NCBI RefSeq assembly: GCF_032854445.1
Contig: NC_088304.1
Span: 2,604,001-2,668,000 of the forward strand
DNA length: 64,000 bases
Direction: 5' to 3'
DNA from: Liolophura sinensis
Lineage: Eukaryota; Mollusca; Polyplacophora; Chitonida; Chitonidae
The position numbers were made by a program, and so were the translations under genes. The notes beneath the pieces are model-generated. The model did not search any database and had not been told where the DNA came from. It saw only the letters and a program-made list of their open reading frames with translations. Numbering within the stretch: position 1 is the first letter of the stretch; each line of letters starts with the position of its first letter. Shown here one piece after another: positions 10,740 to 64,000 of the stretch.

Positions 10740-10752
10740 TCCTTCCCTCCAC

Positions 10753-15945: not shown

Positions 15946-15956
15946 GTCTGGTTCCC

Positions 15957-23735: not shown

Positions 23736-24360
23736 TTCACTACACTATACTTAGACTATACTATACTACACTATACTATACCATACTACACTATACTTTT
23801 CTATACTATACTATACTATACTATACTATACTATACTATACTATACTACTACAATACAACTACTATACAATACTATACTATAATGTACTCTGCTGTACCA
23901 TACTATACTATATTATATACTATGTATTATATTATACTAAATACTATACTATACTATACTATACCATACTATTCTATACTATTCTATCTGGGCTAGACTA
24001 GACTAGACTAGACTAGACTTTACCATTCCATACTTACTGTACTGTACTATATTATACACTACACTGCACTGCACTGCACTGTTCTGCACTGCACTATACT
24101 ATACTGTACTACACTATACTATACTATACTGTACTGTACTGTACTGTACTGTACTGTACTATACTATACTATACTATACTATACTATACTATACTATTCT
24201 ATTTAGACTGGACTATACTAGACTATACTATACTATGCTATGCTATACTACACTACACTACACTACACTACACTACACTAAACTACATTACACTACACTA
24301 CACTACACTACACTACATTACACTACACCATACCATACCATACCATACCATACCATACCA
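23736..24360. repeat. Pentanucleotide satellite, second block
   Basis: Same satellite family as 1-3985. From about 24050 it follows 3680-3985 closely, including the TAGACTGGACTATACTAGAC word and the run of CCATA before the LINE. The two blocks therefore share ancestry beyond the LINE itself. Confidence 0.95.
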
Positions 24361-33788: not shown

Positions 33789-33801
33789 TCCTTCCCTCCA
33801 C

Positions 33802-37000: not shown

Positions 37001-37999
37001 AAGCCAAACATGGAAAAACGACCATATAGGAATCTCCAGGTGAGTTACATCCAGACGCCTTCTTCAAGGATCGACTTCCATCGCACAATTCCGGACAGAA
37101 TACGAGAGCTGGCGAAGGCCAACCCAGACAAAATGGCGTTTGCCTTCAGACAAGCCGGACAACCCAGGGATACCTTGACAAGGAAACGAGTGGTTGGCCC
37201 GACATTTTGTCTGACATGGCATCAGAGCAGGTGACAAAGTAGCCATGCTTGTGGACACACCAACAACAGCTTACATAGAAGACCTGATCTATTAGACAGG
37301 ATGTCGTTTCTTCCAACCTTGTGTGCCTCAGGACAAAGGGTGCGCCCGAAGATTTTTGATAGTATGCTGCTCCTCGCAGAGTCGGCCGTCTCCTCCTACG
37401 CCTCTTCTGAATGTTTGCATTATGTCGGTTTAAAAACAACAACAGCGTTAGGGTTTGAGCTCGGTACAGCCGGGTACACCAGCTCTGACTACGAGGTTAG
37501 AGTGGTGGGTGAAAACGGGGAAGTCGTCTGTGTGGAAACACAGGGGGAACTCTGTTTGCGTGGACCAGCATGTGCCAAAGCTTATGTCTACCTTGACGGT
37601 TCCAGAGCGCCTATTGTGGACGAAGACGGTTGGTACCATACCGGAGATGTAGCACTAATCCACCAAGACGGACGAATCGTCATCATAGGTAGGAAGACTG
37701 AAATGCTTAAACGGGCTTCGGTGAAAATTTTTCCCTCATTCGTGGAGAGGAAGATTCAGGAAAACTTTGAAGAGATTGAGGAAGTTGTTGTTGTTGATGT
37801 GGATGACGACATATTGCACCAGGAGATTTGAGCTTGTATTACGCTCACACCAGACGCACGCATAACCACAGAAGATATCAAGCGGCGTGTCGAGGACATC
37901 TTCAGACCGTCTCTTGAAATGACGTCCGGGAAATGTGATAGGCTGTCACTAACCAAGATGGCCGAAGAAATCATTAAGAGTAATTCTCAGAAGTCTTAA
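37001..37999 (+). pseudogene. Acyl-CoA synthetase pseudogene, opposite orientation to the intact gene
   Basis: It starts after a 3' splice site (TTCTCTCCAG ending at 37000), with ATG at 37010, as in the gene at 14290-15945. The first about 98 codons are recognisable, with a frameshift near 37190. About 200 codons (roughly residues 100-302) are then missing, including the TSGSSG motif. The rest resumes at LLDRM and keeps SYASSECLH, GWYHTGD and GRIVIIGRKTE. A TGA interrupts the frame at 37829-37831, and about 22 codons before SGKCDR, including the PKT, are deleted. It ends QKS-stop like the intact gene. Without the ATP-binding loop it cannot be an active enzyme. Confidence 0.85.
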
Positions 38000-42679: not shown

Positions 42680-43138
42680 TTATCTATACTTTCCCTTCCA
42701 CATGACATGGTATGGACTCAGGTAGATTCGAGCACCCAGCATGTTATGTTTAGCACAATGTTCAAATGTGAACGGGTTGATGTTATTTTCCTCTATATAC
42801 TTCTGCTCCTCTTCTTCCTTCTCCAGAATTTCCCGCGTGACCACACGGGATCGAAACGGGGTAATTTTCGTGATGTGGGTCAGGATGGTTTGTACCTCAC
42901 TCAGTTCGCATTTCCCCCCCATTTCTAGGATGATTCTTCCTGCTTTAATGGGCACTGTGTAGTGGTCGATAGAGCCCTTCCCTTTCCCCATCCTATGACC
43001 TATGCCCTTCTTTGTGATGGGCTTCCAAGGGGAGTCAATCCGCCACACAGCAAACATACGGCGCTCATCCATTTTACGATTGACCACCAGGCGAACACCC
43101 TCGATATGCCCCCAGCGCATCTGCCCTCCTGTTAGTGC
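42680..43138 (-). CDS. MRPL16: MRPL16 last coding exon
   Basis: Open for 152 codons from a 3' splice site (TTTGCATTGAAG) ending at 43139. The ATG at 43144 lies in the intron and is not a start. Conserved blocks: WGHIEGVRL, GHRMGKGKGSIDHY, AGRIILEMGG, NPFTFEHCAKHNMLGAR and the ending LSPYHVMWKGKYR. Confidence 0.93.
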   Translation of the reverse strand, partial: ALTGGQMRWGHIEGVRLVVNRKMDERRMFAVWRIDSPWKPITKKGIGHRMGKGKGSIDHYTVPIKAGRIILEMGGKCELSEVQTILTHITKITPFRSRVVTREILEKEEEEQKYIEENNINPFTFEHCAKHNMLGARIYLSPYHVMWKGKYR

Positions 43139-46100
43139 CTTCAATGCAAATAAAAGAAAAAAAGAAAATAACGAATAAGTTTAAAATTACAGCAGCACCA
43201 AGCAGCAACAAGCATAATTAAGAAATAAATGAAAAGTATACAAAAATGGAGTAGAAAAGCACAATGTTATACTACATGCACCTGTACAGGTAACAGAAAG
43301 CATAGACAAGCTTTTCACTTCATAGCTATTGACTTAATAAAAACAAAAGCGAATGCGTGGTAAATATAAAGCATTATTTGCCAGGCTATCATTTTTGTTT
43401 TTTGAGCAGCTTTTGACAACCCTTGTATAAGACTTGGAAGGTTTTCCCACCTGAATTCATACAGCTATTCTCCACACTCTAGATAGTGTCTGGTGTGTTT
43501 TACAGCACACCTAGATTTTGTTCCAGGATTGTGAAGGTGTAACAGTGTGACAGAACACCTCAATTTCGAAGGCTTTTTTGACTTTGCATATCTCACTAAT
43601 GTTCACTTGAGGGACTTGGTTGAGAATTGTATTTGGTTGAGATCAAAAGTATTCATTAGTTCTATGTTTAACATAATATTCAAGAAATTTCCGCTTTAAT
43701 ATATGATTACGATCATTATTATGGGTCAAAGAAACTAGGGGACCAGCGCTAAAACCCACTCCACACTTAGGGGACCAGCACTAAAACCCACTCCACACTT
43801 AGGGGACCAGCGCTAAAACCCACTCTACGCTTAGTGCGTGGTCTATAATTACTATATTTTACTAAGGATCCCAAACTGTAGCATACTCTCTATTCAATAG
43901 TTTATCATAACCCTCCACACACACCTGAATCGCGTACTGTAGTTTATTATGAACATCCAAACACACCTATATAGCGTACTGTAATTTATTATGAACCACC
44001 ACACATACCTGTATAGAGTACTCCCCATACTGTACTTTGTTATGAACATCCACACACACCTGTATAGTGTACTCTCCATACTGCAGTTTATTATGAACAT
44101 CCACACACACCTGTATAGCGTACTCTCCATACTGTAGTTTATTATGAACCTCCACACACACCTGTATAGAGTACTCTCCATACTGTAGTTTATTATGAAC
44201 CTCCACACATACCTGTATAGTGTACTCTCCATACTGTACTTTGTTATGAACATCCAAACACACCTGTATAGCGTACTCTCCATACTGTAGTTTATTATGA
44301 ACATCCACACACACCTGTATAGCGCACTCCCCATACTGTAGTTTATTATGAACCTCCACACACACCTGTATAGTGTACTCTCCATAATGCAGTTTATTAT
44401 TAACATCCACAGACACCTGTATAGCGTACTCTCCATACTGTAGTTTATTATGAACCTCCACACACACCTGTATAGTGTACTCTCCATACTGTACTTTGTT
44501 ATGAACCTCCACACACACCTGTATAGTGTACTCTCCATACTGTACTTTGTTATGAACATCCAAACACACCTGTATAGCGTACTCTCCATACTGTAGTTTA
44601 TTATGAACATCCACACACACCTGTATAGCGTACTCTCCATACTGTAGTTTATTATGAACATCCACACACACCTGTATAGCGTACTCTCCATACTGTAGTT
44701 TATTATGAACCTCCACACACACCTGTATAGCGTACTCTCCATACTGTAGTTTATTATGAACCTCCACACATACCTGTATAGCGTACTCTCCATACTGTAG
44801 TTTATTATGAACCTCCACACATACCTGTATAGTGTACTCTCCATACTGTACTTTGTTATGAACATCCAAACACACCTGTATAGCGTACTCTCCATACTGT
44901 AGTTTATTATGAACATCCACACACACCTGTATAGTGTACTCTCCATACTGTACTTTGTTATGAACATCCAAACACACCTGTATAGCGTACTCTCCATACT
45001 GTAGTTTATTATGAACATCCACACACACCTGTATAGCGCACTCCCCATACTGTAGTTTATTATGAACCTCCACACACACCTGTATAGTGTACTCTCCATA
45101 ATGCAGTTTATTATTAACATCCACAGACACCTGTATAGCGTACTCTCCATACTGTAGTTTATTATGAACCTCCACACACACCTGTATAGCGTACTCTCCA
45201 TACTGTAGTTTATTATGAACCTCCACACACACCTGTATAGCGCACTCCCCATACTGTAGTTTATTATGAACCTCCACACACACCTGTATAGCGCACTCCC
45301 CATACTGTAGTTTATTATGAACCTCCACACACACCTGTATAGTGTACTCTCCATAATGCAGTTTATTATTAACATCCACAGACACCTGTATAGCGTACTC
45401 TCCATACTGTAGTTTATTATGAACCTCCACACACACCTGTATAGCGTACTCTCCATACTGTAGTTTATTATGAACCTCCACACATACCTGTATAGTGTAC
45501 TCTCCATACTGTACTTTGTTATGAACATCCAAACACACCTGTATAGCGTACTCTCCATACTGTAGTTTATTATGAACATCCACACACACCTGTATAGCGC
45601 ACTCCCCATACTGTAGTTTATTATGAACCTCCACACACACCTGTATAGTGTACTCTCCATAATGCAGTTTATTATTAACATCCACAGACACCTGTATAGC
45701 GTACTCTCCATACTGTAGTTTATTATGAACCTCCACACACACCTGTATAGCGTACTCTCCATACTGTAGTTTATTATGAACCTCCACACACACCTGTATA
45801 GCGCACTCCCCATACTGTAGTTTATTATGAACCTCCACACACACCTGTATAGTGTACTCTCCATACTGTACTTTGTTATGAACATCCACACACACCTGTA
45901 TAGAGTACTCTCCATACTGTAGTTTATTATGAACCTCCACACACACCTGTATAGTGTACTCTCCATACTGTACTTTGTTATGAACATCCACACACACCTG
46001 TATAGAGTACTCTCCATACTGTAGTTTATTATGAACCTCCACACACACCTGTATAGCGTACTCTCCATAATGCAGTTTATTATGAACCTCCACACATACC

Positions 46101-49100
46101 TGTATAGAGTACTCTCCATACTGTACTTTGTTATGAACATCCAAACACACCTGTATAGCGCACTCCCCATACTGTAGTTTATTATAAACCTCCACACATA
46201 CCTGTATAGAGTACTCTCCATACTGCCGTTTATTATGAACCTCCACACACACCTGTATAGAGTACTCTCCATACTGTAGTTTATTATGAACCTCCACACA
46301 CACCTGTATAGAGTACTCTCCATACTGTAGTTTATTATGAACCTCCACACATACCTGTATAGAGTACTCTCCATACTGTAGTTTATTATGAACCTCCACA
46401 CACACCTGTATAGCGCACTCCCCATACTGTAGTTTATTATGAACCTCCACACACACCTGTATAGTGTACTCTCCATACTGTACTTTGTTATGAACATCCA
46501 CACACACCTGTATAGAGTACTCTCCATACTGTAGTTTATTATGAACCTCCACACACACCTGTATAGTGTACTCTCCATACTGTACTTTGTTATGAACATC
46601 CACACACACCTGTATAGAGTACTCTCCATACTGTAGTTTATTATGAACCTCCACACACACCTGTATAGTGTACTCTCCATAATGCAGTTTATTATGAACC
46701 TCCACACATACCTGTATAGAGTACTCTCCATACTGTAGTTTATTATGAACCTCCACACACACCTGTATAGTGTACTCTCCATACTGTACTTTGTTATGAA
46801 CATCCACACACACCTGTATAGCGTACTCTCCATACTGTAGTTTATTATGAACCTCCACACATACCTGTATAGAGTACTCTCCATACTGCCGTTTATTATG
46901 AACCTCCACACATACCTGTATAGAGTACTCTCCATACTGTAGTTTATTATGAACCTCCACACACACCTGTATAGAGTACTCTCCATACTGTAGTTTATTA
47001 TGAACCTCCACACACACCTGTATAGCGTACTCTCCATACTGTAGTTTATTATGAACATCCACACACACCTGTATAGCGTACTCTCCATACTGTAGTTTAT
47101 TATGAACCTCCACACACACCTGTATAGCGCACTCCCCATACTGTAGTTTATTATGAACCTCCACACACACCTGTATAGTGTACTCTCCATACTGTACTTT
47201 GTTATGAACATCCACACACACCTGTATAGAGTACTCTCCATACTGTAGTTTATTATGAACCTCCACACACACCTGTATAGTGTACTCTCCATACTGTACT
47301 TTGTTATGAACATCCACACACACCTGTATAGAGTACTCTCCATACTGTAGTTTATTATGAACCTCCACACACACCTGTATAGCGTACTCTCCATAATGCA
47401 GTTTATTATGAACCTCCACACACACCTGTATAGAGTACTCTCCATACTGTAGTTTATTATGACCCTCCACACATACCTGTATAGCGTACTCTCCATACTG
47501 TAGTTTATTATGAACCTCCACACACACCTGTATAGTGTACTCTCCATACTGTACTTTGTTATGAACATCCACACACACCTGTATAGCGTACTCTCCATAC
47601 TGTAGTTTATTATGAACCTCCACACATACCTGTATAGAGTACTCTCCATACTGTAGTTTATTATGAACCTCCACACACACCTGTATAGTGTACTCTCCAT
47701 ACTGCCGTTTATTATGAACATCCAAACACACCTGTATAGCGCACTCCCCATACTGTAGTTTATTATGAACCTCCACACATACCTGTATAGTGTACTCTCT
47801 CTGCTGCAGTTTCTTATGAACCTCCACACACACCTGTATAGCGTACTCTCCATAATGCAGTTTATTATTAACATCCACACACACCTGTATAGCGTACTCT
47901 CCCTACTGTAGTTTATTATGAACCTTCACACACACCTGTATAGCGTACTGCAGTTTATTATGAACCTCCACACATACCTGTATAGCATGCTCTCCATACT
48001 GTAGTTTTGTATGACCCTCCACACATACACCTGTAGAGTGTATATGGTACTCTCCCTACTGCAGTTTATTATGAACCTCCACACATACCTGTATAGCGTG
48101 CTCTCCATACTGTAGTTTTGTATGACCCTCCACACATACACCTGTAGAGTGTATCAGGTATTCTCCCTACTGTAGTTCATTGTGAACCTCCACAAATACC
48201 TGTTTAGTATACTCTCGACAGAGCAGTTTATTATGAACCTCCAAACATACCTGTATGGCGTACTCTCCATACTGTAGTTTTGTATGACCCTCCACACATA
48301 CACCTGTAGAGTGTATAAGGTACTCTCCCTACTGTAGTTCATTGTGAACCTCCACACATACCTGTTTAGTGTACTCTCGACAGAGCAGTTTATTATGAGC
48401 CTCCAAACATACCTGTATGGCGTACTCTCCATACTGTAGTTTTGTATGACCCTCCACACATACACCTGTAGAGTGTATAAGGTACTCTCCCTACTGTAGT
48501 TCATTGTGAACCTCCACAAATACCTGTTTAGTATACTCTCGACAGAGCAGTTTATTATGAACCTCCAAACATACCTGTATGGCGTACTCTCCATACTGTA
48601 GTTTTGTATGACCCTCCACACATACACCTGTAGAGTGTATCAGGTACTCTCCCTACTGTAGTTCATTGTGAACCTCCACACATACCTGTTTAGTGTACTC
48701 TCGACAGAGCAGTTTATTATGAGCCTCCAAACATACCTGTATGGCGTACTCTCCATACTGTAGTTTATTATGAACCTCTTCAGGCCCTCTCATGTCAATC
48801 AATCTCTTAAACATTTTGGGTGGTCGTTTGTTGGCTGGAAGTAGTGGGACTCTATCCATAATCCGAAGTTTCCTCCTTTCTGGGTACTCCACGTCTGACA
48901 TAAACACAATCAAACATTCTGTTATTTGCAGCAATATTTTTAAGCAATCGGAAGACCCTGGGATCAAACCTAGGCCAGGGATACCAGGTATTTACTGCTG
49001 CCTTGCTTGGTACTCAGCACTGAGAGGTTAGAGCAGGGAAACATGACTAGTTGGCCTTGTGGCAGCATAATGTGACTGTGTGGGGTGTCATCGGCAGGAT

Positions 49101-50166
49101 ACTCCATTGGCGGCAGCACTTTGGCAAACGACCACCTAAGTGTCTTCTATCGCCTAATGTCACCAAGGACCCATATCCAGTGAGAGAGGGGAAATCTACA
49201 AATGCCCTGTCCAAGAGCACGTGTGAAAGTGTACCTCATGATCGTGTGTGGAGGCCCTAACCACTAGACCATGACCCGCTCCACTCGAATACTTTTAGTC
49301 ATAGATTCTGCAAACACATGTCTGTGACAAATCAAATTTTCGCTCTCTATGTCACATTTTTGAAACCTTCATCAATACAAGAAGAAATATTCTGGTATTC
49401 ACATCTTCAAGTGCTTCAAAGCTGAAATTCATAGAAGGAGTCCATCCTTAAAAATGCTTTGCTGGGCATAAGTTCCTATTATTCAAATATTTATTTATTT
49501 ATTTGCTTGGTGTTTTATGCCATACTCAAGAATATTGCACTTACATCATGGTGGCCTGTGTTAAGGTGAGAGGAAACCAGGCAGAGCCCTGCGGAAACCC
49601 ACGATCATCCACAGGTTGCTGGCCAGAGCTTCCCACAGATGACCAGAGTCAAGGCCAGAATGAGCTTGACTTGAACTCACAGCAACCACATCAGTGAAAG
49701 GCTCCTGGGTAATTGTGCTGTGTAATCAGTAGGCCATAGAGCCCCACCCCACCCCCACACACACAAAAAATAGGGTTGACTGGTAGGGAAACTTTCTTAA
49801 TTGAGGTATTAATGAAACAATCATGACAATAGGGGGTTTCAGTGAAACAACGGGTGAAACAAGAGATGTTTTCATGAATCAAAAAGTGTTTTCATGCAAC
49901 AATAAAAGTTTTAAACAAATAAACCTTGAGGCAAAAATGAAATATAAAGTTCATTGAAACCCCAAGAAAATGTAGAGCCTTGTATTGGTAAATGGAACTC
50001 CTGGCCAAACTAAAAGCAAGCCTCTGTCAGAAGCACTTGTAAATACTTTTCCACTGGGTTCCTAATTTCTTACCATCATATTTTGGTGGCATTTCATACT
50101 TGGCTACTCTGTATGACCCAAACAGACAATGTGGAACATAAGAACACAGTAAAGGTATTGCGGTAC
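42680..50166 (-). CDS. MRPL16: Mitochondrial ribosomal protein L16 (uL16m), three exons seen
   Basis: Exons on the minus strand: 50166-50074 (93 nt), 48894-48737 (158 nt) and 43138-42680 (459 nt with stop). Splice sites are all GT-AG and phases match (phase 1, then phase 0). Exon 2 ends MPPKYD; exon 3 gives EYPERRKLRIMDRVPLLP and ends GEYAIQ; exon 4 opens ALTGGQMRWGHIEGVRL. The L16 signature GHRMGKGKGSIDHY and VKAG-like PIKAGRIILEMGG are in the last exon. Product so far is about 236 residues against about 250 in vertebrates. The protein is a large-subunit component of the mitochondrial ribosome near the peptidyl-transferase centre. The first exon, with the start codon and the beginning of the transit peptide, lies upstream of 50166 and was not located. 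The intron 48736-43139 is filled by a 51-bp array derived from this gene. Confidence 0.93.
43145..43738. other. MRPL16 intron, unique part
   Basis: AT-rich intronic sequence between the last exon and the arrays. No feature recognised. Confidence 0.5.
43739..43836. repeat. 32-bp tandem repeat, three copies
   Basis: The unit starts GACCAGCGCTAAAACCCACT and recurs at 43741, 43773 and 43805. It is unrelated to the neighbouring 51-bp array. Confidence 0.9.
43901..48736 (-). repeat. 51-bp array: amplified exon end plus 5' splice site of MRPL16
   Basis: About 95 tandem units. On the minus strand each unit reads GAGGTTCATAATAAACTACA, GTATGGAGAGTAC, a short variable segment, ACAG then GTGTGTGTG or GTATGTGTG. 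The first 42 bases correspond to the last 42 bases of the MRPL16 exon ending at 48737 (EVHNKLQYGEYAIQ), and the last nine to the start of its intron. Every unit therefore carries a copy of the CAG|GT donor. The array starts directly at the real donor. Because 51 is divisible by three and stops are rare, two minus-strand frames stay open for more than 1,300 codons. Variants (GAATGT, TGCC and AATAATG-type changes) recur in blocks, so higher-order copying has taken place. Confidence 0.92.
47926..48736 (-). repeat. 162-bp higher-order repeat at the exon-proximal end of the array
   Basis: Here three subunits (51, 51 and about 60 bp) form a 162-bp unit. The longer subunit contains ATACACTCTACAGGTGTATG. 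The phrase CCACACATACACCTGTAGAG recurs at about 48128, 48290, 48452 and 48614. In-frame stops occur in this part (for example at 48653-48655). Confidence 0.85.
48737..48894 (-). CDS. MRPL16: MRPL16 internal exon, parent of the 51-bp array
   Basis: The acceptor TTTATGTCAG ends at 48895 and the donor CAG|GTATGT lies at 48736. It encodes the segment aligned to the start of the mature domain (RKLRIMDRVPLLP, then RGPEEVHNKLQYGEYAIQ). Its last 42 bases are the source of the array unit. Confidence 0.9.
48945..49280 (+). mobile_element. SINE-C, copy 1
   Basis: A repeat of about 300 bp matched by 52781-53080. Shared phrases are CTGCTGCCTTGCTTGGT, CTCAGCACT(G/A)AGAGGTTAGA, TGACTG(T/G)GTGGGGTGTCAT and GGCGGCAGCACTTTGG. 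The start (GGGATCAAACCTAGGCCAGG) may be a B-box-like remnant. It lies in a MRPL16 intron. Class inferred from size and dispersal only. Confidence 0.6.
49488..49745 (-). mobile_element. SINE-B, nearly full length
   Basis: On the minus strand: a GGGGCTCTATGGCCTACTGA head, ACCCAGGAGCCTTTCACTGA, the AAGTCAAGCTCATTCTGGCC middle, ATCGTGGGTTTCCGCAGGGC, then ATATTCTTGAGTATGGCATA and an AAATAAATAAAT tail. It lies in a MRPL16 intron, antisense to SINE-C next to it. Confidence 0.75.
50074..50166 (-). CDS. MRPL16: MRPL16 upstream exon (end of transit peptide region)
   Basis: Acceptor TTCTATTTACAG ends at 50167; donor G|GTAAGA lies at 50073. The exon encodes TAIPLLCSYVPHCLFGSYRV and AKYEMPPKYD. It begins with two bases that complete a codon, so at least one more exon lies upstream. 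The content suits the junction between a mitochondrial targeting segment and the mature protein. Confidence 0.8.
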
Positions 50167-52210
50167 CTGTAAATAGAATACAAATTGACTGTAGGCAATG
50201 CGAGATCAATCCACTTCAAGTAATATCACTGATTAATAAGTGTATACGTGTGCTTTTATGCACAAGGACCGAAAAGGATGAAATTTCATGTTTCACTTTT
50301 CACACAACTCATACGTGGGAAGGTCAGCAGCAACTTGCAGATGGTCATGGGTCTCCCCCGGGGCTCTGCCCGCTTTCCTCCCACCATAATGCTGGCCGCC
50401 GTCGTATAAGTGGAATATTCTTGACTACAGCGTAAAAAAACAATCAAATAATTAAGTTTCACACAACTAATCCAAGTAAAAAGATTCAGTATGTAAACAA
50501 TTTTTGCGTAACAGAATAAAATCATCTGCACTTTTAAGCTGTATATAAAACATATATCTTTAAATATAATGAGGGCGTTTTATTTGTTGAGATTACGTAT
50601 GCATGTCAAAATGCATAACGCGCCACAAAATTAGCCTGCGAAATTTTGGAGCAAATTGAGTTCAAGTGTATGGCGATAGGCCTATCTATCATTTGTGCCT
50701 CTTTCTCACCAATGACATTGTCCGATTTACTCAGGAGTAAACATCTTCTTGAGATTTTTTCGACGGGTGAAATCATCATAAAATGTTGGTGTTGCACTAA
50801 ACTACTGGTGTTGCACTGATATGTTATACCGAAAATCACATGTCAGAATAAAACACTTTCAATGTTGATTTCTCATCAAAGCCAACCAAACTCCGCCGGC
50901 GACATGCGTGGTTGTACGGTTGTTATGAAAATACGCACTTAAATATGTTCCTCCTAAAATGGAAAAAATCTATAATTATAAATGTACAAATCAGAATGTT
51001 TATTCCAGAATTAGACTTCTAAAACTAAATCAGTTATGTTCAGTTTTGTCACTTTTAAACGGTATAGGTGTGTATGATAAAGATATTTTTGTTGTTTTCG
51101 AACTTCTTTGACTTTACTAAATTTCAGCTTCAAATCGTTTGTCAAATCTTAGATTTTAACCCAACCATCATGGAAAACACGGTGATGTCGTCTGCAACCT
51201 TGTAAATGATTGTGTCGTTCCAGTCGTGGTGACCTTTAGCATTGTGCTAGTCTAACGCAATGACTGCTTTCAAAGAATCTTGGGTGTACATATGGCTTTG
51301 ACAAATCAATCAAACATGAAAACATACAAACTTTGGCTGCATCAAAAGTCTCGGACCTCAGGTAACTGCAACAACAACAACACCATTATGTTTTTGTGGG
51401 TTTTTTTTTTTTTTTGTCTGAGCAGCCCGATACTGCCGTCAGTTTTAAACTGTTAAAGACCAAACTTGTTTGTGTCATGACACCAGCATGAAATATTTTA
51501 AAAAGTGTTGATCGAACTAACTGTGTAAAAAGCCAGATCGGAACATGTTTCACTGAGGGAATTTTCCACATCACATGATCAGTCTGACATGACAGACTGG
51601 ACGGTAATAAAGACCGGATTAGAGAGGGATCAGCTACACATAAGCAACCATAGCACACTCAAACTACTACATGGACATATACCAAGCAACAGCAACAGCA
51701 TTTCAAGCTATCCAGACATGCCAGAAATATGCAATGGTGATTTGGTAAAATCATGGAGGTAGAATACAAGGAGGTAAAACAGGTTGGCCTCACATACATG
51801 CTGTGGCATTGTACTCTGAATGAAACTTCCTGTCGTCGTGCAGTCTTTCATGTTCAATGATACCGTGCTTCAGAGCGCGTATGCAAGCCAAGGTTAACAG
51901 GATCTGGGTAGAAAAGGATCTCACCATGTGCACTTTCCTTGAGTGAATATCATTAACACCAAATTTTTGTGTACAAGAAAGATGTAAAGGGTCATTTTTT
52001 AAAATGAAAATGAAAATAAAATGAAAAGGGCTAGGCCTATGGCCGTACCAGCACTACTGCTTCCAACGCCACTGAAAAGGGTGCATGTCTCAAAAGCACA
52101 GAGACACCCTCCTCTCCACCACCACTTGCCCAAGCTAAACCAGTAAGTAAGACAGGTGCATGTAATTATGATGTTTGTGTAATGACGTCTTTGTGATCTT
52201 CTGTTCCCAG
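50167..52210. other. Region between the divergent genes MRPL16 and DEPDC5
   Basis: The first exons and promoters of both genes should lie here. I could not identify either start codon with confidence. The most CpG-rich spot is at about 50880-50935. A possible donor-like GTAAGT occurs at about 52140. A truncated SINE-B is present at 50308-50452. Confidence 0.5.
50308..50452 (+). mobile_element. SINE-B 3' part
   Basis: Contains GTGGGAAGGTCAGCAGCAAC, the CCACCATAATGCTGGCCGCC core, GTCGTATAAGTGGAATATTC and a CAATCAAATAA tail. Confidence 0.75.
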
Positions 52211-55200
52211 ATCCGAATGTGGATATTGTGATAAACCCAAAGGAGTTCCCTGGATTGAAGGCCAAGGATATCCTGGAGATTTACCACCCAGATGAGGAGT
52301 ATAGGTAAAGGATGTTCTTTAAATTTTGAAAATTTGCAGAGATATGTTAAATTTTTCACAGCGTTTAAGATAGATGGAAGAATGAGGCAGTCGGAAATTT
52401 GCACCCAGCTCCAGTAACTGTAACTGTATTTCAGTGGTATATATAGACTTAAAAGCATCATTACAGTTTTTGTTCCCGCAGTGAATTTATGTATGGAATT
52501 TTCTTTTAAAGTGGGTAACTTCCTTTAACTGGCATTGAGAAGTTAGACCATGGTCATTAGTCAAAAGTTTCATGGGGCCACTCCAAGACATTGCTATCGT
52601 GTTATACAAAAAGTTGTTTAACAAATTCGCTGCCTTGTATAACTTATGAAGTGGGTTGAATTTTGGACTTTTTTCAAATACATTGAGCATTTAGGATAGA
52701 TGTATGGTCTTAATATACAGAACATATGAAATAAAATATTCTTGAGTATGGTGATAAACAACAATCAAGTTGGTTAAATTGGCTTGAAGTCGCGCGACCA
52801 GAGATCAAATCCACGTTGGGTCATACCAAAGACTTGTTGGTACTTGTTGCTGCCTTGCTTGGTGCTCAGCACTAAGAGGTTAGAACGAACAAACAGGGAC
52901 TGGGTGGCCCAGTGTCAGTATAATGACTGGGTGGGGTGTCATGTTTGGTGTCTTCAGTGATACATCAGTGGCGGCAGCACTTTGGTGGCATGCCAAAAGA
53001 AGTGACAGTACTCACACCTAATGACACCAGGTCATCATATGACTGAAAAATTGACAAGTACAGTGTTAAACCTCTAGCATTCAGTTAATCAGTCATTCAT
53101 TTCTGGGATTGATTTATTTTGACATTTGTAATATTGTGTGTTGGTAATATTGGCATAATATTGAAGAATAGGTCATTAAACTGGGACAGAATTTAACCAT
53201 TTTGTTAAAAAATTTATGTCAGGGTTTATCACAAATGTCATGATTGATATCTATGAAATGATGGATATAAAGGATTCATTCATTTTCCTTCCAGTCGCCT
53301 GCTGCTACAGTTTGAAGAGTTGAATGATGAGCAGAAGCAAATTAATCAAAAAGGTATGATTGGAGTTTTTCACCAGTTGTGTGGAGAAAACGTTTTTGCC
53401 CATATGCAGGTGTAAACCAGCATACGAAGACAGAAACTCCCGATTCATCTTTACACAAGATGTGGCTAGCTGTTTGTGGCCTCATGACCAAGTTGCTGGA
53501 ACACACAAGTAGCAGGTTCAAACCCAACCTTGGACAGGAAATTTGTGAATTCCTTTAAATATAATTTCCCTTTTTGTTATGCCTTTTGTCCTCATCCTCT
53601 GTCTGGTAAAATGAACAGTCTTAACATTATTGGAATTTGTATTACACCCTTCATGTTCACCCGCACATATCTTTTAGCTTCTTTCCAGCTTACATCATAA
53701 ATGTTAAACCTGTCCATGTCTTTACAGAGACAGTCAGTATTGACCAGTCTATCGCCACTGCCTTCCAGCTGCGAATGTACAAAGATGTCTATGTCCAGAA
53801 AGTTAACCCACAGGTAAGAAAGTTGTCTGTGTCATAATAAACGAAGCGCTCTACAAAAAATCCTAATGGACAAAGTAATTGGCACATTCTGTAGGTGCCT
53901 TCATCCATTTTTCACTTCAGTTATTTTTCTGTTAAGTCAAATTATTAATAGAAATAGACTGACTGCTTAGACTCTTGAACTCCTGAAATTCTTTACTGTC
54001 TTTCCTAACTTTTGGCTGTTTGCTATGACCTGGTAATATTTCAAACTCAGTGTGTTATTTCTAGCTTTATGTGGTACATGTAGGCAGTTATTTATAGTTT
54101 TGAAGTGATGTCATAGCTGCACTGAGCCAATTATCCATACACTCTTTAGTCACCTGGCTACAGCACTGGAGGTGAAAACAAAAACCAAATTTAACCGATG
54201 TGAGATCGGCCTTCAGTAAGATTTTAACATGAATAATGAAAAATATATCTTGTAAGTAATTTTTTTGGTAGTTTCATTGTCTTGTAGCTCTTTAAACTTC
54301 ATAAATCGGCAAAAATCAGCATTCACCCATTTAGCTTCATGTTATTTATCACCCTCTGATTCTTGCGAGTATCCCAGATGCTCAAGGGTAGGAATTCTCC
54401 AGTTTCACAGTTATCATATTTCTTGATTTGGATGCACCCATTGACATTATGCTCTGCCTTTATGCCTTGTGCTGTCTGTTTTTTTTTTTTTGGAGTGTGT
54501 TCTCCAGACCTTCAGTTATTTATATTGTCATCTGCTATGCATTGTTGTCTCAGGATGTTACCCTGGACCTGGTGGAGCTCCTGTTTAAGGAGCAGTACTA
54601 CAGTCGAAGTGATATGTGGAGGATGAGGAAGAGTCTGGTAAGGGAGGCAACTCTCTCTAATACAACAAAGTAATGATTGATGGAGCTCCTGTTTAGGTTA
54701 CACGAGCACATCGGTTTAACTTAGTGTTAATGTCGTAAATTTGTCAACTGTAACCTCAAAAATATATCCACTAACAATACCAACATATGCAGCTTGCACT
54801 TTTCTCTACAACATAAGACAAGCATGACAACCATTGTTTTGAGCTGTGAATTAAAGTCATAGTATCTTGATAACCTACACGGGGGTGGGTGGTAACACAA
54901 AGCAAAACATATTCAGTTCTATCGAAGGTAGACAAAATTCTGTTGTACATTGTATTTTAACTGGGTGCAAAATAGCAGTGTAGCAATTTATAGTGTATCA
55001 ACAACCTAACATGTCTGTATGGCAGTATTATCCAATCGGTGCTCCTTCACTCTTTAGTTCGGAAGCAAATCTTTGACCCAGTTGCCCGAATTACGCATGT
55101 GTAACATTAAGAGACGTTATTTTGCTGAGTCTGGTTAGGGAAGTAGTCAAGGATTTCAAGATGATGATGATGATGTGGGATGTAAGTTGTGACAGGTTGG

Positions 55201-58200
55201 TTAGAGGGGTTAATCTCTCAGGAAGAGTTGTGAGGGGTGGGATGGGGATATGAATGGGGCCTGGCGTGGGATGGGGATATGAATGGGGCCTGGCGTGGGA
55301 TGGGGATATGAATGGGGCCTGGCGTGGGATGGGGATATGAATGGGGCCTGGCGTGGGATGGGGATATGAATGGGGCCTGGCGTGGGATAGGGATATGAAT
55401 GGGGCCTGGCGTGGGATGTATATAAGTTACACCTCTATTTAACACATTACGGTCACATAAACATTCATTTTCTACTTATTTCAGGTGAACACTTGTGCAT
55501 ATTTGACCAAAAAAGTGGCATTTGCCGACATGAGGTGAGAAAGCTCACTGTGGTTTTTGTTATCTTATAGTTCAGTACATGTATATGGTGATGAAGTAGA
55601 TACACGTATCTTGGCTTGAGATTTAAGTAAAGTGTAATGTCTCCCAGGAGATAAATGTATCGGATTTACAATGGACATCAAGTATGAAGAATGCAGCATT
55701 GGTAAATCAACAGACTTAATTTGAATTGAATCTGAATCTGACATTTGTTTCATTGTAGAGCACAGGTCAATGAACTTTGGGCGAAAGGAGAGAAGGTGAC
55801 GTGTGGTGTGGTTTCTGAGGACACTAGGGTGAGTTGCCTCCCTTTTCTGATCGCTCTATACCATATGTCCTTGCTATAGAGTTGTTTGCTGAATACTGGT
55901 AATTCAGTGGTTTTTTTCATCGACATTTCATCAATCTGTATAAATATCTGTATTATTAATTGGCATGCTGTATACCAAGTTAAAAAATGATTCTACCCTT
56001 TTGCGTAAGATTTTCCATTTGTAAATGATATGTACAGTTACACACTGTTCACAATATTCCACTAATTCACAACCCATTACTTAAGAAATTCTGAAATGCT
56101 TTATACCAGTGTTGAAACAGTAGTTAACTTTTGTGTCACCTTGCTGTCAGATCGTGTTCCGTTCCCCAACAGCTGTAGTCAGCATTTTCATACAGATGAG
56201 CTCAGAAATGTGGGAATTTGACAACTATGGTGATCTGTATTTTGAAAAAGCTGTGGATGGATTTTTGAAAGACCTGTTTGCAAAATGGAAGGTAAAAATA
56301 AATCTTACTTTTATGTTGTTTGGCTCTGCAAGTTTCACCGAACTCCTCAACAGAGCATTACATCACCTTTCGCTTTACATCACCGCCACCAATAGACAAG
56401 CTTGAACTTTGGAGCCTGTGAGACACACCTGGGCCTGTTTTCACTTAATCTCATCACTTGTCTCCTCCCGCGGAACTATTTAATCAGCATTCATCAATAA
56501 AATTGTTTTTGGTTTTGGTTTGAATCATGTTGTACATACTCTAGATGAAGAGAGCGTATGTGTATTAAGTAATATCATAGATTTCTGTACGAAATTTCCT
56601 ACTGGTAGCAGTGATGTAAAGCGAAAGGTAGAGAGCAATACATGCATTATAAGGAGTGTGAAGTTTCATGTGTGAATGATACCATTTAGATTCTGTTGTA
56701 AAATGACACCTAACAGAGTAATGTATTGTAAATGCAATGTTGAACTTAAAATCAATTCTACTTTAACACTTTAGCATTAAGATCAGGATAGAAAACCTTC
56801 AGATTAAAAGGCATAGCAGAATGAGGAATTTCCTGGTTGTAACTTCAGCATAAACCCCATGTGTACTGCAGAAGGCATAGTGATAATACTACACACAAGT
56901 CATAGTAATTATCACCCTGTTTGTGCTCTTAGGGCTGTCCTTTTTGAGACAATGTAATGGCTTCCACAGAAACGCGGCCAGTAAGGTTACAGTACTGAAG
57001 CCACCTCTTGTTGGTTCAGCTATGACTGAGGGAAATACTCTTGAGCACAGCGTGAAATACCATGGAGATAAATAAATAAATAAATGTTTGTGTTATTGCA
57101 GGAGCAGAATTGTTTACATGATGTCACAATAGTGCTGTTTTCAAGAACATTCTTTGATGCCAAATCAAGAGGTACATGTTTTTTTTTTTTTGGTTTTGAG
57201 GAATTTGTACTGTTCATGTGGGATTAGTATGCCAGCTTTGAGACTCGTATTCTATGTAGGTATGACTTAACAGATGTAACTTTGGACTCTTTATTTAAAC
57301 TGTAATCCTGTGACTTCTGAAGCATATTGTTTCTTAGTGGCATCCACATGGAGGTCTGATATGATCGCAGTAGTCTTAATACTTCATGTATACTTATCTT
57401 TTTATAAATAGCACAATTTTTGTCTTCTCTGTCAGATGAGTTCCCAAGGTCAATGAGAGATTGTGTACAGCAGGACTATAGAGGGCGCTTTTATGAGGAC
57501 TATTACAGGTATGCAAGTGTTTTGAAGCTTACCTGTGAACTGTAAGCTTCAAAACTATAGAAAGAAACAAAACGATAACAGAATATAAACATATTTCACA
57601 TTTCACAGAATAAATAATTGAAGAAGAGAAATTTATGTAGTTAAAAAGATCAGAGAAACAGTCAAGCATGATTAATGTTTGAGGTAAAGAACTAACGTTA
57701 TTTGAATTTCCATGAAGTTTCGGTCTTGTTCTTGCAGTGATATTTGAAGAAATTGTTTTAATAATCATTTTATCAATTTTTGTTTTTTTCAAAACCAGGT
57801 GGAACAAGAATTGAAACACATTTTAATGCTTAAAACTGTACAATTATGGCTGAGGAGAATTTGCACTACGGCAGGTACATATCTGTGCTCTGGATGTTTA
57901 AGAATAATATATGAGGCAAGTATTTCAAGGAAAAGTGTTGTTGTTGTTGTTCTCAGGGTAGTGATTCAGAATGAGAGGTATGAAGACTGGACCAGTACAC
58001 TTGTTCGACTGAAGACACTCTTCAACGAGTACCCACAACGAGTCCTGCATTACCACGAAAACAGGGGAGATAACCAGAAGGTCCCCACAGCCCACAACTC
58101 GACAGCCGCACAAGGCAACTTCCTGGAAACCTTGAACATGGCGCTTAACTGTGAGTTCTGAAAATAGTTATGTATGAGTAAGTAATTCATCATTTATAGC

Positions 58201-61200
58201 CACCTAAAAAGGTTAGAGAACCAAGCAGGAGACCTGGGTTCAGTTCTATGTTTGTGACTTTTGTATTATCATACACTCTTGGTTCTTCCTCTCTGGGTTA
58301 ACTGTGTGTGTATTTTGACTTGTTTGTCTTTGGCCATATCCTTGCATTGTGGCAGCACTGTAAATGCTCAAGAAATGGTTGTAAATTGATCCAAATAGCG
58401 ATAGAACCAAAGTAAATATCAAGCAAACATACCAACCTACTATTATACATGTAACATGACATTTAAAAGAAACTCATGATTTAGGCTTGTTAGATATTAT
58501 CACATTTACTTGAAGTACAGAAAAAACTATGGTCTACAGCTATCTGTGCCCATACATTTAACTTACAAAGCAAAGAAGTACACTCACGTTTTCATTTAGT
58601 GCCATCATATTAATGTATTTAGAGGCTGAATAAGTGACATGGTCAAATCATGTGACAGAATCACTCACGTTATATGTTCATCTGCAATGCCCCTCATGAT
58701 TTTTCATGAATTCGTGAGTTTGTCAGTTGTTTTGTCAGTTTTTTCCTTCCAATTTCTTTCTTTTTTGTGATGTGTTTGTCCTGTAACTGATGCTGATTTT
58801 TCAGTACATGAGAAGTCATGTAAGGGCCATAACTTTGGACGGAACAAGGAAATCCCACCATCCTGGAAGTCAAAACTCTCTTGTTTTCAGGCTCCTACAT
58901 CCTCTTTATGCTCATCGAGTTTGCTGTTAAATCCGTGTATTTTTGTCATCTATTTTCATGCATCTGTTGCTGCTGTTTGCAGTGTTTGAGAAGTGGTACA
59001 TAGACCGTAACTTTGACAGAACGGGGAAGGTGGCTGTGGTGATCACCCCGGGGGCAGGAGTATTTGAAGTGGACAGAGAACTGTGCAACATTACGAAGCA
59101 GAGGACCATCGACTGTGGTGAGTTCTTAATTGGTCAAGCTTACCTTATGTATACTTTTCTTCAATATGTTAAATTATTTCAGTGCTTAAAATAATCTCTT
59201 CAAGATTTACTTTACATTTACGTGAATAAAAGATAATCTGCATGAACCCGATGTGTTCACACATATTAAAACTGTATATAAGCTGTCACGAAATCTTAGG
59301 CTGCCTTTACTGAGCATGTATTTCTACTTGTAGGTGTTGGCAGTGACCTGGTTTGTGTTGGAGAACAACCCCTCCATGCTGTCCCACTGTTTAGGGTCAG
59401 TGCCACAAACACACTCCTTTATGCCAGTGTACCAAAAATCAGTGATCTAACAGCTATAAAATCTTTTTCTTTTTATTAATCAAACAGGGATGAATTCTCT
59501 ACTTACATTATCAGAATTGTATTATATTATACTTGCACATACTAATACGGAAAATTCTTTAAATGTTCCTTGGGCCCCTGTGGCCAAGGGGGTTAGCATG
59601 CCAGCACGACCCAATGACCCAAGAGCCTCCCACCAATGTGATCACTGCAAGTCCAACTCATGCTGGCTTCCTCTCCAGCTGGACGCAGGAAGGTCTGCCA
59701 GCAACCTTAGGTTGGTCGTGGGTTTCCCCCCCACCATAATGCTGGCCGTAATATAAGTGAAATATTCTTGAGTATGGGGGAAAACACCAATCAAATAAAT
59801 AAATTTAATATGCCTTTAATTTCTTTATTATATCTTCTCGCCACAAATCTTCCCTCTTCGTCTTAAAACTTTCCTATGTATTTCTTGCTAAAATTTATAT
59901 ATGTGAATAAGATATAAATAACAATGATTTTATTATGTTATAAGAACATACTTTTGTATTTATGATTTTGTTCATTCTGTTTGGTCAGTTTCACAACAAA
60001 AACCCTAATCAAAGGATGCAGGACATGGGAGATGATTACAACATTCCACATTGGATGAACCACAGGTAAATACAGGACCACTGGGCTGCCATTTTCAGTA
60101 TTTAAGTTTCTCACCACCACTCCATTCATAATATTGAAGAAGACAAGGCATGACTGCGTAAATTTCAAATGCCACACACGCTTTCCATCCTCATGCCTAT
60201 AATTTCATCAAGTTCACCTAAGTTGTTTACAATGAAATGGTTCAATGTTAACAGCCAGTCAGTTGCGATGCATCAAAATACTATGTCACAAAAAACTTTC
60301 CTTCCTTAACTTTTTTGTGATTATTTCATTGCATTGTGATATTAACTTGGTTGTGGTTCAACTGATAGCTGTTTGTATCTTGCTACTACTTAATATATTA
60401 GAAATAAAAGATGTCATTCTCTTGATAAAGATCCATACATGAGGATTGAAAACTTGTGTAGCACTAAAACTTTATGTGGAGGAGCATTGACTTCTTCATT
60501 GCTATCATTAAACCTATATACTGCATCAGGGGGTCTCTGTGGCTCAGTTGGTTAGCGCGCTAGCACAGCGTAATGATCCAGAAGCCTCTCACCAATGCGG
60601 TCGCTGTGAGATCAAGTCCAGCTTATGCTGGCTTCCTCTTGGGCCGAACGTAAGAAGGTCTGTCAGCAACCTGCGGATATTCGTGGGTTTCCCCTGGCGT
60701 CTGCCCGGTTTCTTCCCACCATAATGCTGGCCACCGTCGTATAAGTAAAACACCAAGCAAATAAATAAATCTTTCAACCCCAGCTTTTAGAAATAAGCTA
60801 AGAAGTTGGTCACAAATGTCTGTGGTATAGGCCTGTAAGTTTATTACGCTGAGCATTATGGATTCCTCTATCTTTCAACCTGACCTCTGTGATATAAATC
60901 AACAATACTTAAACACGGTATGATTACACCCCAGTCAAATAAATAAATTTACATATATGTGTATGGTGCATCATGGTTGAAGTTATGGTGATAATGAATG
61001 TGGGAGATTTTTTGGGCAAATAAACTGAAATTATTACAGTTGTTTGAGAGTGTCATTATGACGTGCAGTTTATTAAAAAACATCATGAAGGGACATGGTT
61101 ATACTGCTGCAGTGCTTGTCTTCTATAGTCTCTATAGAATTCACTTCCTAATCTTGCTTTCTCTGCCACAGTTTCTACACATCAAGAAGCCAAGTCCAGT

Positions 61201-62521
61201 GTTTGGCCAACTCCACATTTGTACCCAGGATTAAACCTCCACCTGAAGTGGTAAATATTGACATACCCTAATTATTGAACCGTTACAATCGTCTGGCAGC
61301 TAATATTGTAATACATTCTGAGAGACTTATGATGTGTATAGAAATACTTTGCACAGTGTTGTGAAGCTTGCATTTTTAATGACACAGACAAATCATTTTT
61401 AGTGTCTTTTTCATAATAATTGTATGCATAAATTCGATCGCGAAAAGTGCTTTAGTGGTTGAAAAAGTTGAAGATTTACAATATCATGGCAACTTAAAAT
61501 TGTTATACTTAAATTAAATGTTCATTTCAGGAAAGTTAGGAAATTTAAAATAATGTTTCCATCTTTACGGGAATAGGATATAATTCGTTCTTAAACAGTA
61601 AAAATATGTTGAAAAGTGCCCTCTGGATAACGTTTAAGCTGCAGTCCTGATCTCAGGCTTGAAATGGGGCATGTGTAAGACTTTAATTTGTCAGTGTTTG
61701 TTATTCCCATTCTGGCATGTCAGGTGTCTTCTGCGTGGTGTTCCAGTGAAGCAAGACTCACTGGAATGTGGACATCTATATATATGCCAGCATGTCAATG
61801 ACACTGACCTCCAGCAAGGATGTGTGATGTTGAAAATGGTGTTAAAAGCCAAACAAACAAATTTACCAGACATAATTCCTTGCTGTAATTCCAGAAAGAA
61901 GCTTTGCTGAGGGGTAAATCCAAGGAACAACCCAAGTGCAAAAAGAAGAAAGAAGGTAATGAGTCTGTTCAATAATGGGAAGGACTGTTTATAAAATTGG
62001 ATATTGTCTTCAAGAAATAGCTCCTTGCTGCTGTATATGGAATTCTGTTTGGTCAAAAACAGGAGGCTGTAGCAGTTTAATTTGATTGAGATAGTGATAT
62101 AAAATTTCAAGTTGTCTGTTTGGAGGTCTGTTAAACATGGCATGGAAAAGGCTTAGTCTGATTCTTCTGGCACTGTGTCATTTTGTTATGGTAGTGGAAT
62201 GGCAATCCTGGGTGGTAAATGTATTTTAGCTGGTAACATGTGACATGTATGGCATAAGGTTAACTAGTGCTTTGTATGCATACTGAAAATACGGCAAGCT
62301 GAACAATTGTTGAGCAGTTCGCGCCTTTGGCTTGACCAAACCCCATATGATTGTGCCAGTTTTGCTCATGTGTTTTGTGCTTATTTTTTCTTTTCAGCAG
62401 ACAAGATATTTTCGAGCCCTCCTTACATTAATGAGAACGAAGAGAATTTTCAGTTCATAGACTACGATGAGTATGATGCCCAGGTGTTTAAGATCCCATC
62501 ACGACCAATGAGGAGAGGGGG
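52211..62521 (+). CDS. DEPDC5: DEPDC5 (GATOR1 subunit, Iml1 homologue), 16 exons of the N-terminal part
   Basis: Exons: 52211-52304, 53295-53353, 53728-53813, 54554-54637, 55485-55534, 55759-55828, 56151-56291, 57102-57171, 57436-57508, 57957-58150, 58983-59117, 59334-59395, 59989-60065, 61172-61250, 61895-61955, 62398-62521. All have GT-AG borders and matching phases, giving about 486 codons. Diagnostic blocks include [62 protein letters not shown] and [18 protein letters not shown], and the last exon gives [13 protein letters not shown]. This is the N-terminal domain and the Iml1 structural core of DEPDC5, which with NPRL2 and NPRL3 forms GATOR1 on lysosomes and restrains mTORC1 through Rag GTPases when amino acids are scarce. 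The start exon lies upstream of 52211 and was not found; the C-terminal two thirds, including the DEP domain, lie beyond the window. The intron after the last exon opens with a 59-bp array derived from that exon. Confidence 0.93.
52725..52772 (+). mobile_element. SINE-B tail fragment
   Basis: ATATGAAATAAAATATTCTT, GAGTATGGTGATAAACAACA, ATCAAG. Short and old; lies in the first DEPDC5 intron seen. Confidence 0.45.
52781..53080 (+). mobile_element. SINE-C, copy 2
   Basis: Partner of 48945-49280 in the same orientation on the window. Shares GTTGCTGCCTTGCTTGGTGC, TCAGCACTAAGAGGTTAGA and GGCGGCAGCACTTTGG. It ends near GACTGAAAAATTGACAAGTA then GTGTTAAACC, the kind of 3' end seen in SINE-A. Confidence 0.6.
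55219..55430. repeat. 29-bp minisatellite, about six copies
   Basis: The unit contains GGGATGGGGATATGAATGGG and GCCTGGCGT, in a DEPDC5 intron. Copies are nearly identical (one G to A change in the last), so it is young. The unit is not derived from either flanking exon. Confidence 0.95.
57000..57085 (+). mobile_element. SINE-B tail fragment
   Basis: GGAAATACTCTTGAGCACAG, CGTGAAATACCATGGAGATA then AATAAATAAATAAAT, ending 16 bp before the acceptor of the DEPDC5 exon at 57102. Confidence 0.55.
58805..58852 (+). pseudogene. Relic of a duplicated DEPDC5 exon
   Basis: After a good acceptor (GATTTTTCAG) the sequence tracks the first about 48 bases of the exon at 58983: TGAGAAGT, then a diverged middle, then TAACTTTG, GAAC and GGAA at matching places. 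It lies 178 bp upstream of the real exon. The frame continues open into the intron but no donor follows at the right place, so I regard it as decayed. Confidence 0.5.
59571..59806 (+). mobile_element. SINE-B, full length
   Basis: Head CCCCTGTGGCCAAGGGGGTT AGC resembles a tRNA A box region. The B-box-like GATCACTGCAAGTCC, the TGCTGGCTTCCTCTCC middle, the CCACCATAATGCTGGCC core and the CACCAATCAAATAAATAAAT tail follow. It lies in a DEPDC5 intron. Confidence 0.8.
60530..60775 (+). mobile_element. SINE-B, full length
   Basis: Head GGTCTCTGTGGCTCAGTTGG TTAGCGCGC is clearly tRNA-like (A box), followed by the conserved middle, CCACCATAATGCTGGCCACC and a CAAGCAAATAAATAAAT tail. This copy best shows the tRNA origin of the family. 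Confidence 0.85.
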
Positions 62522-64000
62522 GTGAGTTTTACTGTGATGAGTATCACGCCCAGGTGTTTAAAACCCATCACAACCACTGAGGAGAGCAGGGTGAGTTTTA
62601 CTGTGATGAGTATGATGCTCAGGTGTTTAAGATCACTGAGGAGAGGCGGGTGAGTCTTACTGTGATGAGTATGATGCCCAGGTGTTTAAGAACACTGAGG
62701 AGAGGCGGGTGAGTTTTACTGTGATGAGTATGATGCTCTGGTGTATGAGATCACTGAGGAGAGGTGGGTGAGTTTTACTGTGATGAGTATGATGCTCAGG
62801 TGTTTAAGATCACTGAGGAGAGGCGGGTGAGTATTACTGTGATGAGTATGATGCCCAGGTGTTTAAGAACACTGAGGAGAGGCGGGTGAGTTTTACTGTG
62901 ATGAGTATGATGCTCTGGTGTATGAGATCACTGAGGAGAGGTGGGTGAGTTTTACTGTGATGAGTATGATGCTCAGGTGTTTAAGATCACTGAGGAGAGG
63001 CGGGTGAGTATTACTGTGATGAGTATGATGCTCTGGTGTGTGAGATCACTGAGGAGAGGTGGGTGAGTTTTACTGTGATGAGTATGATGATCAGGTGTTT
63101 AAGATCACTGAGGAGAGGTGGGTGAGTCTTACTGTGATGAGTATGATGCCCAGGTGTTTAAGAACACTGAGGAGAGGCGGGTGAGTTTTACTGTGATGAG
63201 TATGATGCTCAGGTGTTTAAGATCACTGAGGAGAGGCGGGTGACTCTTACTGTGATGAGTATGATGCTCAGGTGTTTAAGATCACTGAGGAGAGGCGGGT
63301 GAGTCTTACTGTGATGAGTATGATGCCCAGGTGTTTAAGAACACTGAGGAGAGGCGGGTGAGTTTTACTGTGATGAGTATGATGCTCTGGTGTGTGAGAT
63401 CACTGAGGAGAGGTGGGTGAGTTTTACTGTGATTAGTATGGTGCTCAGGTGTTTAAGATCACTGAGGAGAGGCGGGTGAGTATTACTGTGATGAGTATGA
63501 TGCTCTGGTGTGTGAGATCACTGAGGAGAGGTGGGTGAGTTTTACTGTGATGAGTATGATGCTCAGGTGTTTAAGATCACTGAGGAGAGGCGGGTGAGTC
63601 TTACTGTGATGAGTATGATGCTCAGGTGTTTAAGATCACTGTGGAGAGGCGTGTGAGTTTTACTGTGATGAGTATGATGCTCAGGTGTTTAAGATCACTG
63701 AGGAGAGGCGAGTGAGTTTTACTGTGATGAGTATGATGCTCAGGTGTTTAAGATCACTGAGGAGAGGCGGGTGAGTATTACTGTGATGAGTATGATGCTC
63801 TGGTGTGTGAGATCACTGAGGAGAGGTGGGTGAGTTTTACTGTGATGAGTATGATGCTCAGGTGTTTAAGATCACTGAGGAGAGGTGGGTGAGTCTTACT
63901 GTGATGAGTATGATGCCCAGGTGTTTAAGAACACTGAGGAGAGGCGGGTGAGTTTTACTGTGATGAGTATGATGCTCAGGTGTTTAAGATCACTGAGGAG
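62522..64000 (+). repeat. 59-bp array: amplified exon end plus 5' splice site of DEPDC5
   Basis: It begins at the donor of the exon ending at 62521. Each unit reads GTGAGTTTTACTGT (intron start) then GATGAGTATGATGC, CAGGTGTTTAAGATC and ACTGAGGAGAGGCGG (exon end). The donor GTGAGT is repeated in every unit. The first unit is 69 bp and still contains an ACCCATCACAACCACTGAGG segment close to the exon's ATCCCATCACGACCAATGAG; from the second unit on this part is shortened and the period is 59 bp. About 25 units are visible and the array continues past the window. Two main variants (CTCAGGTGTTTAAG and CTCTGGTGTGTGAG) alternate in blocks. Confidence 0.93.

Follow-up and report, generated by a model that had tools for sequence, protein, structure and literature searches.

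The MRPL16 and DEPDC5 genes, a divergent pair of animal genes in the 64-kb window (the whole stretch of DNA analysed here, with a GC content of 41%), each contain a minisatellite whose unit consists of the last bases of an exon and the first bases of the following intron. The original prediction of such twin exon-end/donor minisatellites in two adjacent genes was confirmed by TRF, by unit parsing and by Smith-Waterman alignment against shuffled sequences. The two arrays are a real, little-described kind of repeat with precedents in the literature. As their most likely origin, held with reasonable though not high confidence, we consider a chance duplication spanning the donor, which was tolerated as the first donor still works and was followed by ordinary minisatellite growth.

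The minus-strand gene was identified as MRPL16 since it matches uL16m in solved mitoribosome structures (best E 7.9e-27). For the plus-strand gene, DEPDC5, the identification is based on its match to DEPDC5 in solved GATOR1 structures, with E about 7e-68 for ordinary chains and 5.3e-138 for one GATOR1 chain containing the sequence twice. The 16 exons of DEPDC5 (52211-62521; exon and intron numbers are our own) join into a stop-free frame. MRPL16 exons upstream of 48895 are unannotated and are absent from every count given below. The features of the two genes and the minisatellites in or beside them are the following:

42683..43138, minus strand: MRPL16 downstream exon with an open frame; its acceptor, TTGAAG|GCACTA, was not copied from the repeat unit
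43736..43834, minus strand: 32-bp array of 3.1 copies in the MRPL16 intron, by inspection not derived from an exon; coding strand G-rich
43879..48736, minus strand: 51-bp array of MRPL16 within the intron, unit of 42 exon and 9 intron nt; the distal units are decayed
48737..48778, minus strand: exonic copy 1 of the MRPL16 51-bp unit, 42 coding nt
48737..48895, minus strand: MRPL16 exon from whose 3' end the 51-bp array is derived; its protein aligns to uL16m free of gaps at the splice junction; the acceptor end is perhaps 48894
49855-49912, found by TRF: weak 20-bp repeat with 2.9 copies; it lies upstream of the annotated MRPL16 exon, possibly within an MRPL16 intron outside the annotation; coding strand not G-rich
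55237..55418, plus strand: 29-bp array of 6.3 copies in DEPDC5 intron 4, away from exon borders and with a G-rich coding strand; used as a comparison array
62398..62521, plus strand: DEPDC5 exon 16
62466..62534, plus strand: copy from which the DEPDC5 array arose, 56 exon and 13 intron nt
62535..62603, plus strand: first intronic copy of the DEPDC5 array, 69 bp
62604..64000, plus strand: DEPDC5 units of 59 bp that lack about 10 bp, with 23 full ones in the window; the window end cuts the array

For MRPL16, the intron following the annotated exon is 5598 bp long, with its donor after 48737 and the next exon starting at 43138. TRF identified a 51-bp array at 43977-48778, and a wrap-around unit parse extended it from 48778, inside the exon, to 43879, with the alignment being ambiguous in the last bases of the distal end. 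The array comprises 96 units including the exon copy, 92 of which are near full length (at most 3 gaps), and each unit corresponds to the last 42 bases of the exon plus the first 9 of the intron. Column counts were based on the 91 near-full intronic units, so that the exon copy and 4 gappier units were excluded. CAG|GT is present in 91/91 of them. Among the 92 units, the donor reads CAGGTGTGT in 64, CAGGTATGT in 22, CAGGTGTCT in four and CAGGTATTT in two. A higher-order repeat of the types B-C-D adjoins the exon, with C-type units containing a 9-base insertion that was set aside by the parse, and the three most distal units show 14, 14 and 23 differences to the exon copy when gaps are counted. 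The exon copy has GCC and GTATGTTTG in common with the D-type units, as an exchange of exon and array would give, but as would equally follow from the retention of the ancestral state by both.

Copy 1 of MRPL16 is coding sequence whose frame continues into the next exon: it encodes EVHNKLQYGEYAIQ, which is joined to ALTGGQ, and the junction is gap-free in the uL16m alignment, while the residues directly before GEYAI are poorly conserved there. The first MRPL16 donor is probably the donor that is used. A coding array was rejected, since the frame of copy 1 is interrupted by 7 stops within the array, the first of them in the second intronic unit; with about 200 nt beyond the array included, 11 stops were counted.

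For DEPDC5, TRF identified a 59-bp array at 62575-64000, downstream of exon 16. Here the founder is 69 bp long, comprising the last 56 bases of the exon and 13 of the intron; it is repeated once at 69 bp, and the 59-bp unit is a later deletion form of it, which was subsequently amplified. Thus, of the unit lengths given in the original prediction, 51 and 59 bp, the first was correct for MRPL16 and the second describes only the derived form in DEPDC5. Contrary to what had been stated, neither array starts exactly at the 5' splice site; both straddle the donor, and copy 1 begins within the exon, 42 nt before its end in MRPL16 and 56 nt in DEPDC5. GTGAGT occurs 24 times in 62501-64000, including the donor of the exon itself, and the commonest forms of the unit donor are CGG|GTGAGT (12/23) and TGG|GTGAGT (8/23). 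The array and its intron extend beyond the window, and the 23 full units are an in-window count only. Copy 1 lies within a protein stretch matched by DEPDC5 of solved GATOR1 structures. At this site the motif DYDxYDAQ[V/I]F is kept in 7 of 9 relatives, chosen from the best 18 of 120 listed rows, and has diverged in the other two (P0005 and P0018).

The tandem structure at both donors is far beyond that of shuffled sequence. When the last 50 exon and 15 intron nucleotides were aligned to the following intron, Smith-Waterman scores of 51 for MRPL16 and 48 for DEPDC5 were obtained, with maxima of 17 and 16, respectively, in 100 shuffles each. In the same comparison of donor and following intron, none of the other 15 donors in the window scored above its own shuffle maximum. 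Because copy 1 is coding sequence in both genes, the exon end reads as the source of each array. On the coding strands the two units align with a score of 9, which was reached by 239/500 shuffles, and the claim that they share no sequence holds for this orientation. In the opposite orientation a score of 10 was reached by 14/500 shuffles; this similarity is weak, and homology was not read into it. The comparison supports the independent origin that had been proposed for the two arrays, which lie on opposite strands and appear to have arisen separately. A megablast search of 133 bases against plasmids gave no match and is uninformative here.

The self-alignment scan of donors and acceptors, which had been suggested on a genome-wide scale, was carried out for this window and revealed donor-founded arrays at 2/17 donors and arrays at 0/17 acceptors. 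For one of the 17 acceptors, that of DEPDC5 exon 11, an upstream partial copy scored 24 against a shuffle maximum of 16; it is a decayed copy of the exon start and acceptor at 58803-58890, which precedes the real exon by about 180 bp. For the first DEPDC5 acceptor, the comparison covered the 2 kb in front of the listed exon 1. Under uniform placement over the gene span (52211-62521 plus 42683-48895), two donor-founded arrays are expected with P = 0.002 under strict limits of at least 20 exon and at least 6 intron bases. With loose limits, P was 0.007 for four arrays and 0.009 for five, the fifth being the TRF row at 49855-49912. These P values are post hoc, since the array pair prompted the test and both the gene span and the choice of arrays were ours. 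The excess over uniform placement is suggestive, no more, and a tolerance filter, by which the upstream donor stays usable after duplication, would favour donors too. The original interpretation is supported in part, namely for the independent origin of the two arrays, and a recurrent mechanism is not demonstrated by them.

The explanation that we prefer would run as follows. A single chance tandem duplication of 51 bp in MRPL16 and of 69 bp in DEPDC5 would have crossed the exon/intron border. The original exon and donor would have stayed in place, with the surplus exon end and donor falling into the intron. Splicing at the first donor would still yield the normal mRNA. Finally, unequal exchange or slippage would have multiplied the intronic copies, giving rise to the spread of variants and to higher-order repeats. 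Since exon and first donor remain intact, a duplication of this type should be tolerated, which would usually not apply to a duplication inside an exon; donor borders may thus stand out as the exon-touching type of duplication that selection tolerates. The head-to-tail units with variant spread are those of an ordinary minisatellite, in MRPL16 together with the higher-order repeat and the decayed edge, and this pattern points to unequal exchange or slippage as the process. DEPDC5 provides a series of steps, from the 69-bp duplicate over the 59-bp deletion form to amplification. Tolerated duplication and ordinary growth explain everything seen except, perhaps, the frequency.

Several results count against a chance duplication of this kind. 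With four or five minisatellites considered, two founded at donors are more than expected from uniform placement (P 0.002-0.009), and all 91 near-full intronic units of MRPL16 offer CAG|GT, so that competing donors that look usable are present throughout. In a position weight matrix built from the 15 other native donors, a small set, the real donor of MRPL16 scored 9.2 and the commonest array donor 8.4, and for DEPDC5 both scored 9.3. The real donor thus scores slightly higher than the array donor or equal to it, and strength alone fails to explain why the first donor would win over the array donors, as it presumably does. In addition, the partial copy upstream of DEPDC5 exon 11 indicates that acceptor duplications can be tolerated too, which counts against a tolerance of donors only. 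In favour of the preferred explanation, selection on the array donors was considered and rejected: by conservation of 9-mers, the donor columns rank 5 of 51 in MRPL16 (3 when only distinct unit types are counted), but 34 and 51 of 59 in DEPDC5 for all units and distinct types, and the extra donors of the two arrays thus show no uniform signature of selection. The predicted RNA folding of two MRPL16 units was unremarkable (z +0.49, with 132/200 shuffles folding as well), and for two DEPDC5 units z was -1.62, with 12/200 shuffles folding as well.

A recurrent process linked to transcription would account for the frequency in another way. According to this explanation, the G-rich coding strand at donors leads to R-loops or to breaks whose repair duplicates the local sequence, after which G-rich arrays continue to expand. 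The four minisatellites that lie within annotated introns have coding-strand GC skews of 0.39, 0.30, 0.68 and 0.53, compared to a mean of 0.06 (sd 0.16) in 40 windows of 200 nt from ordinary introns. Donor-centred segments (45 + 13 nt) have a mean skew of 0.24 (n = 17 donors), and the presence of arrays at two donors and at none of the acceptors fits the same process. However, the arrays are few, the fifth minisatellite at 49855-49912 has a coding-strand skew of -0.20, and the array-bearing donors do not stand out, with skews of 0.27 and 0.42 against a mean of 0.22 for the 15 array-free donors, 4 of which exceed 0.42. A G-rich strand bias is common among minisatellites generally. The R-loops named in the original prediction are thus possible, with a G-rich coding strand in four of the five minisatellites in or beside both genes, and this G-richness could link donors to the birth of repeats; as the origin of the two arrays, we consider the transcription-linked process unlikely, though to be taken seriously. 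The wider reading, by which donor borders are preferred birthplaces of minisatellites in this genome, with a G-rich coding strand leading to recurrent duplication during transcription, many introns carrying their own exon-end arrays and the border acting as a hotspot of intron enlargement, is in our view doubtful.

A function of the arrays is improbable. Repeated donors might bind U1 snRNP or serve as alternative or dual-specific splice sites, or the units might extend MRPL16 by in-frame repeats, for which the invariant CAG|GT in 91/91 near-full units and the unit length of 51 bp, divisible by 3, could be cited, as could the AG|GT of the MRPL16 units, which is the dual-specific motif in the part of PMC10809524 available to us. 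These points are opposed by the stops in the frame of copy 1, by the DEPDC5 unit of 59 bp, which is not divisible by 3, by donor columns that are not unusually conserved in DEPDC5, and by an MRPL16 intron that is no multiple of 51 and ends in an acceptor that is no unit copy. More improbable still is an assembly artefact in one or both arrays: long arrays are difficult to assemble and the copy number may be wrong, but the variants are graded, a higher-order repeat and a 69-bp intermediate exist and the distal units are decayed, none of which is expected from repeated or collapsed reads. The reverse-transcribed intermediates of the original prediction, or mobile introner-like elements inserted at borders, would explain why both arrays adjoin a splice border. 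A template of spliced RNA is disfavoured because each unit holds intron bases past an intact donor; moreover, the units are copies of the local exon and have no sequence in common on the coding strands. To this origin we assign a probability close to negligible. A chance duplication across the donor with subsequent ordinary growth is preferred over all of these.

That the arrays represent an undescribed phenomenon, as had been suggested, is too strong, since both a donor-bearing minisatellite in IFI6 and human minisatellites at exon-intron boundaries have been published. For human IFI6 (6-16), a minisatellite providing several splice donor sites was reportedly described by Turri et al. in 1995. 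In MRPL16 and DEPDC5, likewise, the unit holds a 5' splice site, copy 1 is the exon end and further copies follow one another head to tail in the intron downstream; by their anatomy, the two arrays would belong with donor-bearing minisatellites of the IFI6 type. They differ in that the units are 51/59 bp long with 42-56 nt of coding exon, in up to about 95 copies, while the unit of the IFI6 minisatellite is short, about 12 bp. According to the portion of PMC4526556 that was available, the IFI6 minisatellite supplies multiple splice donors, and downstream repeat units are used as donor sites, whereas the array donors of MRPL16 and DEPDC5 are predicted only. Human variable internal tandem repeats, with average units of 30 bp in 4 copies, can sit at exon-intron boundaries, and 27 intron modifications were listed for them (PMC2812944, accessible in part). 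Like the arrays described here, they are minisatellites at such boundaries that alter introns; as far as the accessible text goes, they are located in segmental duplications and mostly gave rise to new introns backed by transcripts, in contrast to the enlargement of an existing intron in the present case.

Other known systems are less similar. In human tandem repeats, an 8.4-fold excess of introns with a length that is a multiple of the unit was reported in the sections seen of PMC10809524. The dual-specific splice sites described there for UBC resemble MRPL16, and only MRPL16, in the AG|GT of each tandem unit; the commonest DEPDC5 units end in CGG|GT or TGG|GT. For MRPL16 the UBC pattern was not found, since its intron is 109 x 51 + 39 bp long, no multiple of the unit, and its acceptor TTGAAG|GCACTA is not derived from the unit. 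Intron gain by tandem duplication has been reported (PMC2891723, in excerpt), and in the excerpt of PMC4974935 tandem duplication of exon sequence together with a splice site turned one copy intronic, as here. However, the MRPL16 acceptor is no unit copy, so that intron gain of this type was not found for MRPL16 and the duplication lengthened an intron instead of creating one. Short direct repeats of 4-30 bp near intron borders were read as insertion scars in the text seen of PMC11782384; they share the location at or near intron/exon borders, but were compared between both borders of an intron and are not tandem arrays downstream of one donor. Intronic minisatellites were reported in earthworm, abalone and worm (PMC12783039, PMC6905558, PMC4039745), and the portions of these papers that were at hand contain no mention of units derived from exon ends. 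In the open-licence literature, no paper was identified on intronic minisatellites that arose from tandem duplication at a donor splice site.

Other repeats were identified elsewhere in the window. Two similar LINE-like copies are located at about 4.0-9.6 kb and 24.3-30.0 kb; an endonuclease-reverse transcriptase domain was found in the second, the only copy scanned. Pentamer repeats flank each copy, of the CATAC type in front and CTACA behind, which may reflect a preference for the insertion site or a templated tail. Pentamer arrays of CTATA/ACTAC, long and degenerate, are present at 802-2176, 2842-3975 and 23707-24358, and two similar complex arrays with a 286-bp period at 9740-10742 and 32755-33791, outside the genes studied. 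A 569-aa AMP-binding open reading frame (14293-15999, minus strand) has a partial second copy on the opposite strand (37235-37828, plus strand), and 49-bp tandem repeats lie near both. These repeats, near 13921 and 38245, were rejected as exon-border arrays, as no exon border was seen on inspection.

If the process is recurrent, splice donors would contribute to the growth of introns and supply decoy splice sites, and transcription, errors of replication or repair and intron size would be joined in one testable process. Even as isolated cases, MRPL16 and DEPDC5 are natural tests of how the spliceosome chooses the first of some 90 near-identical donors.
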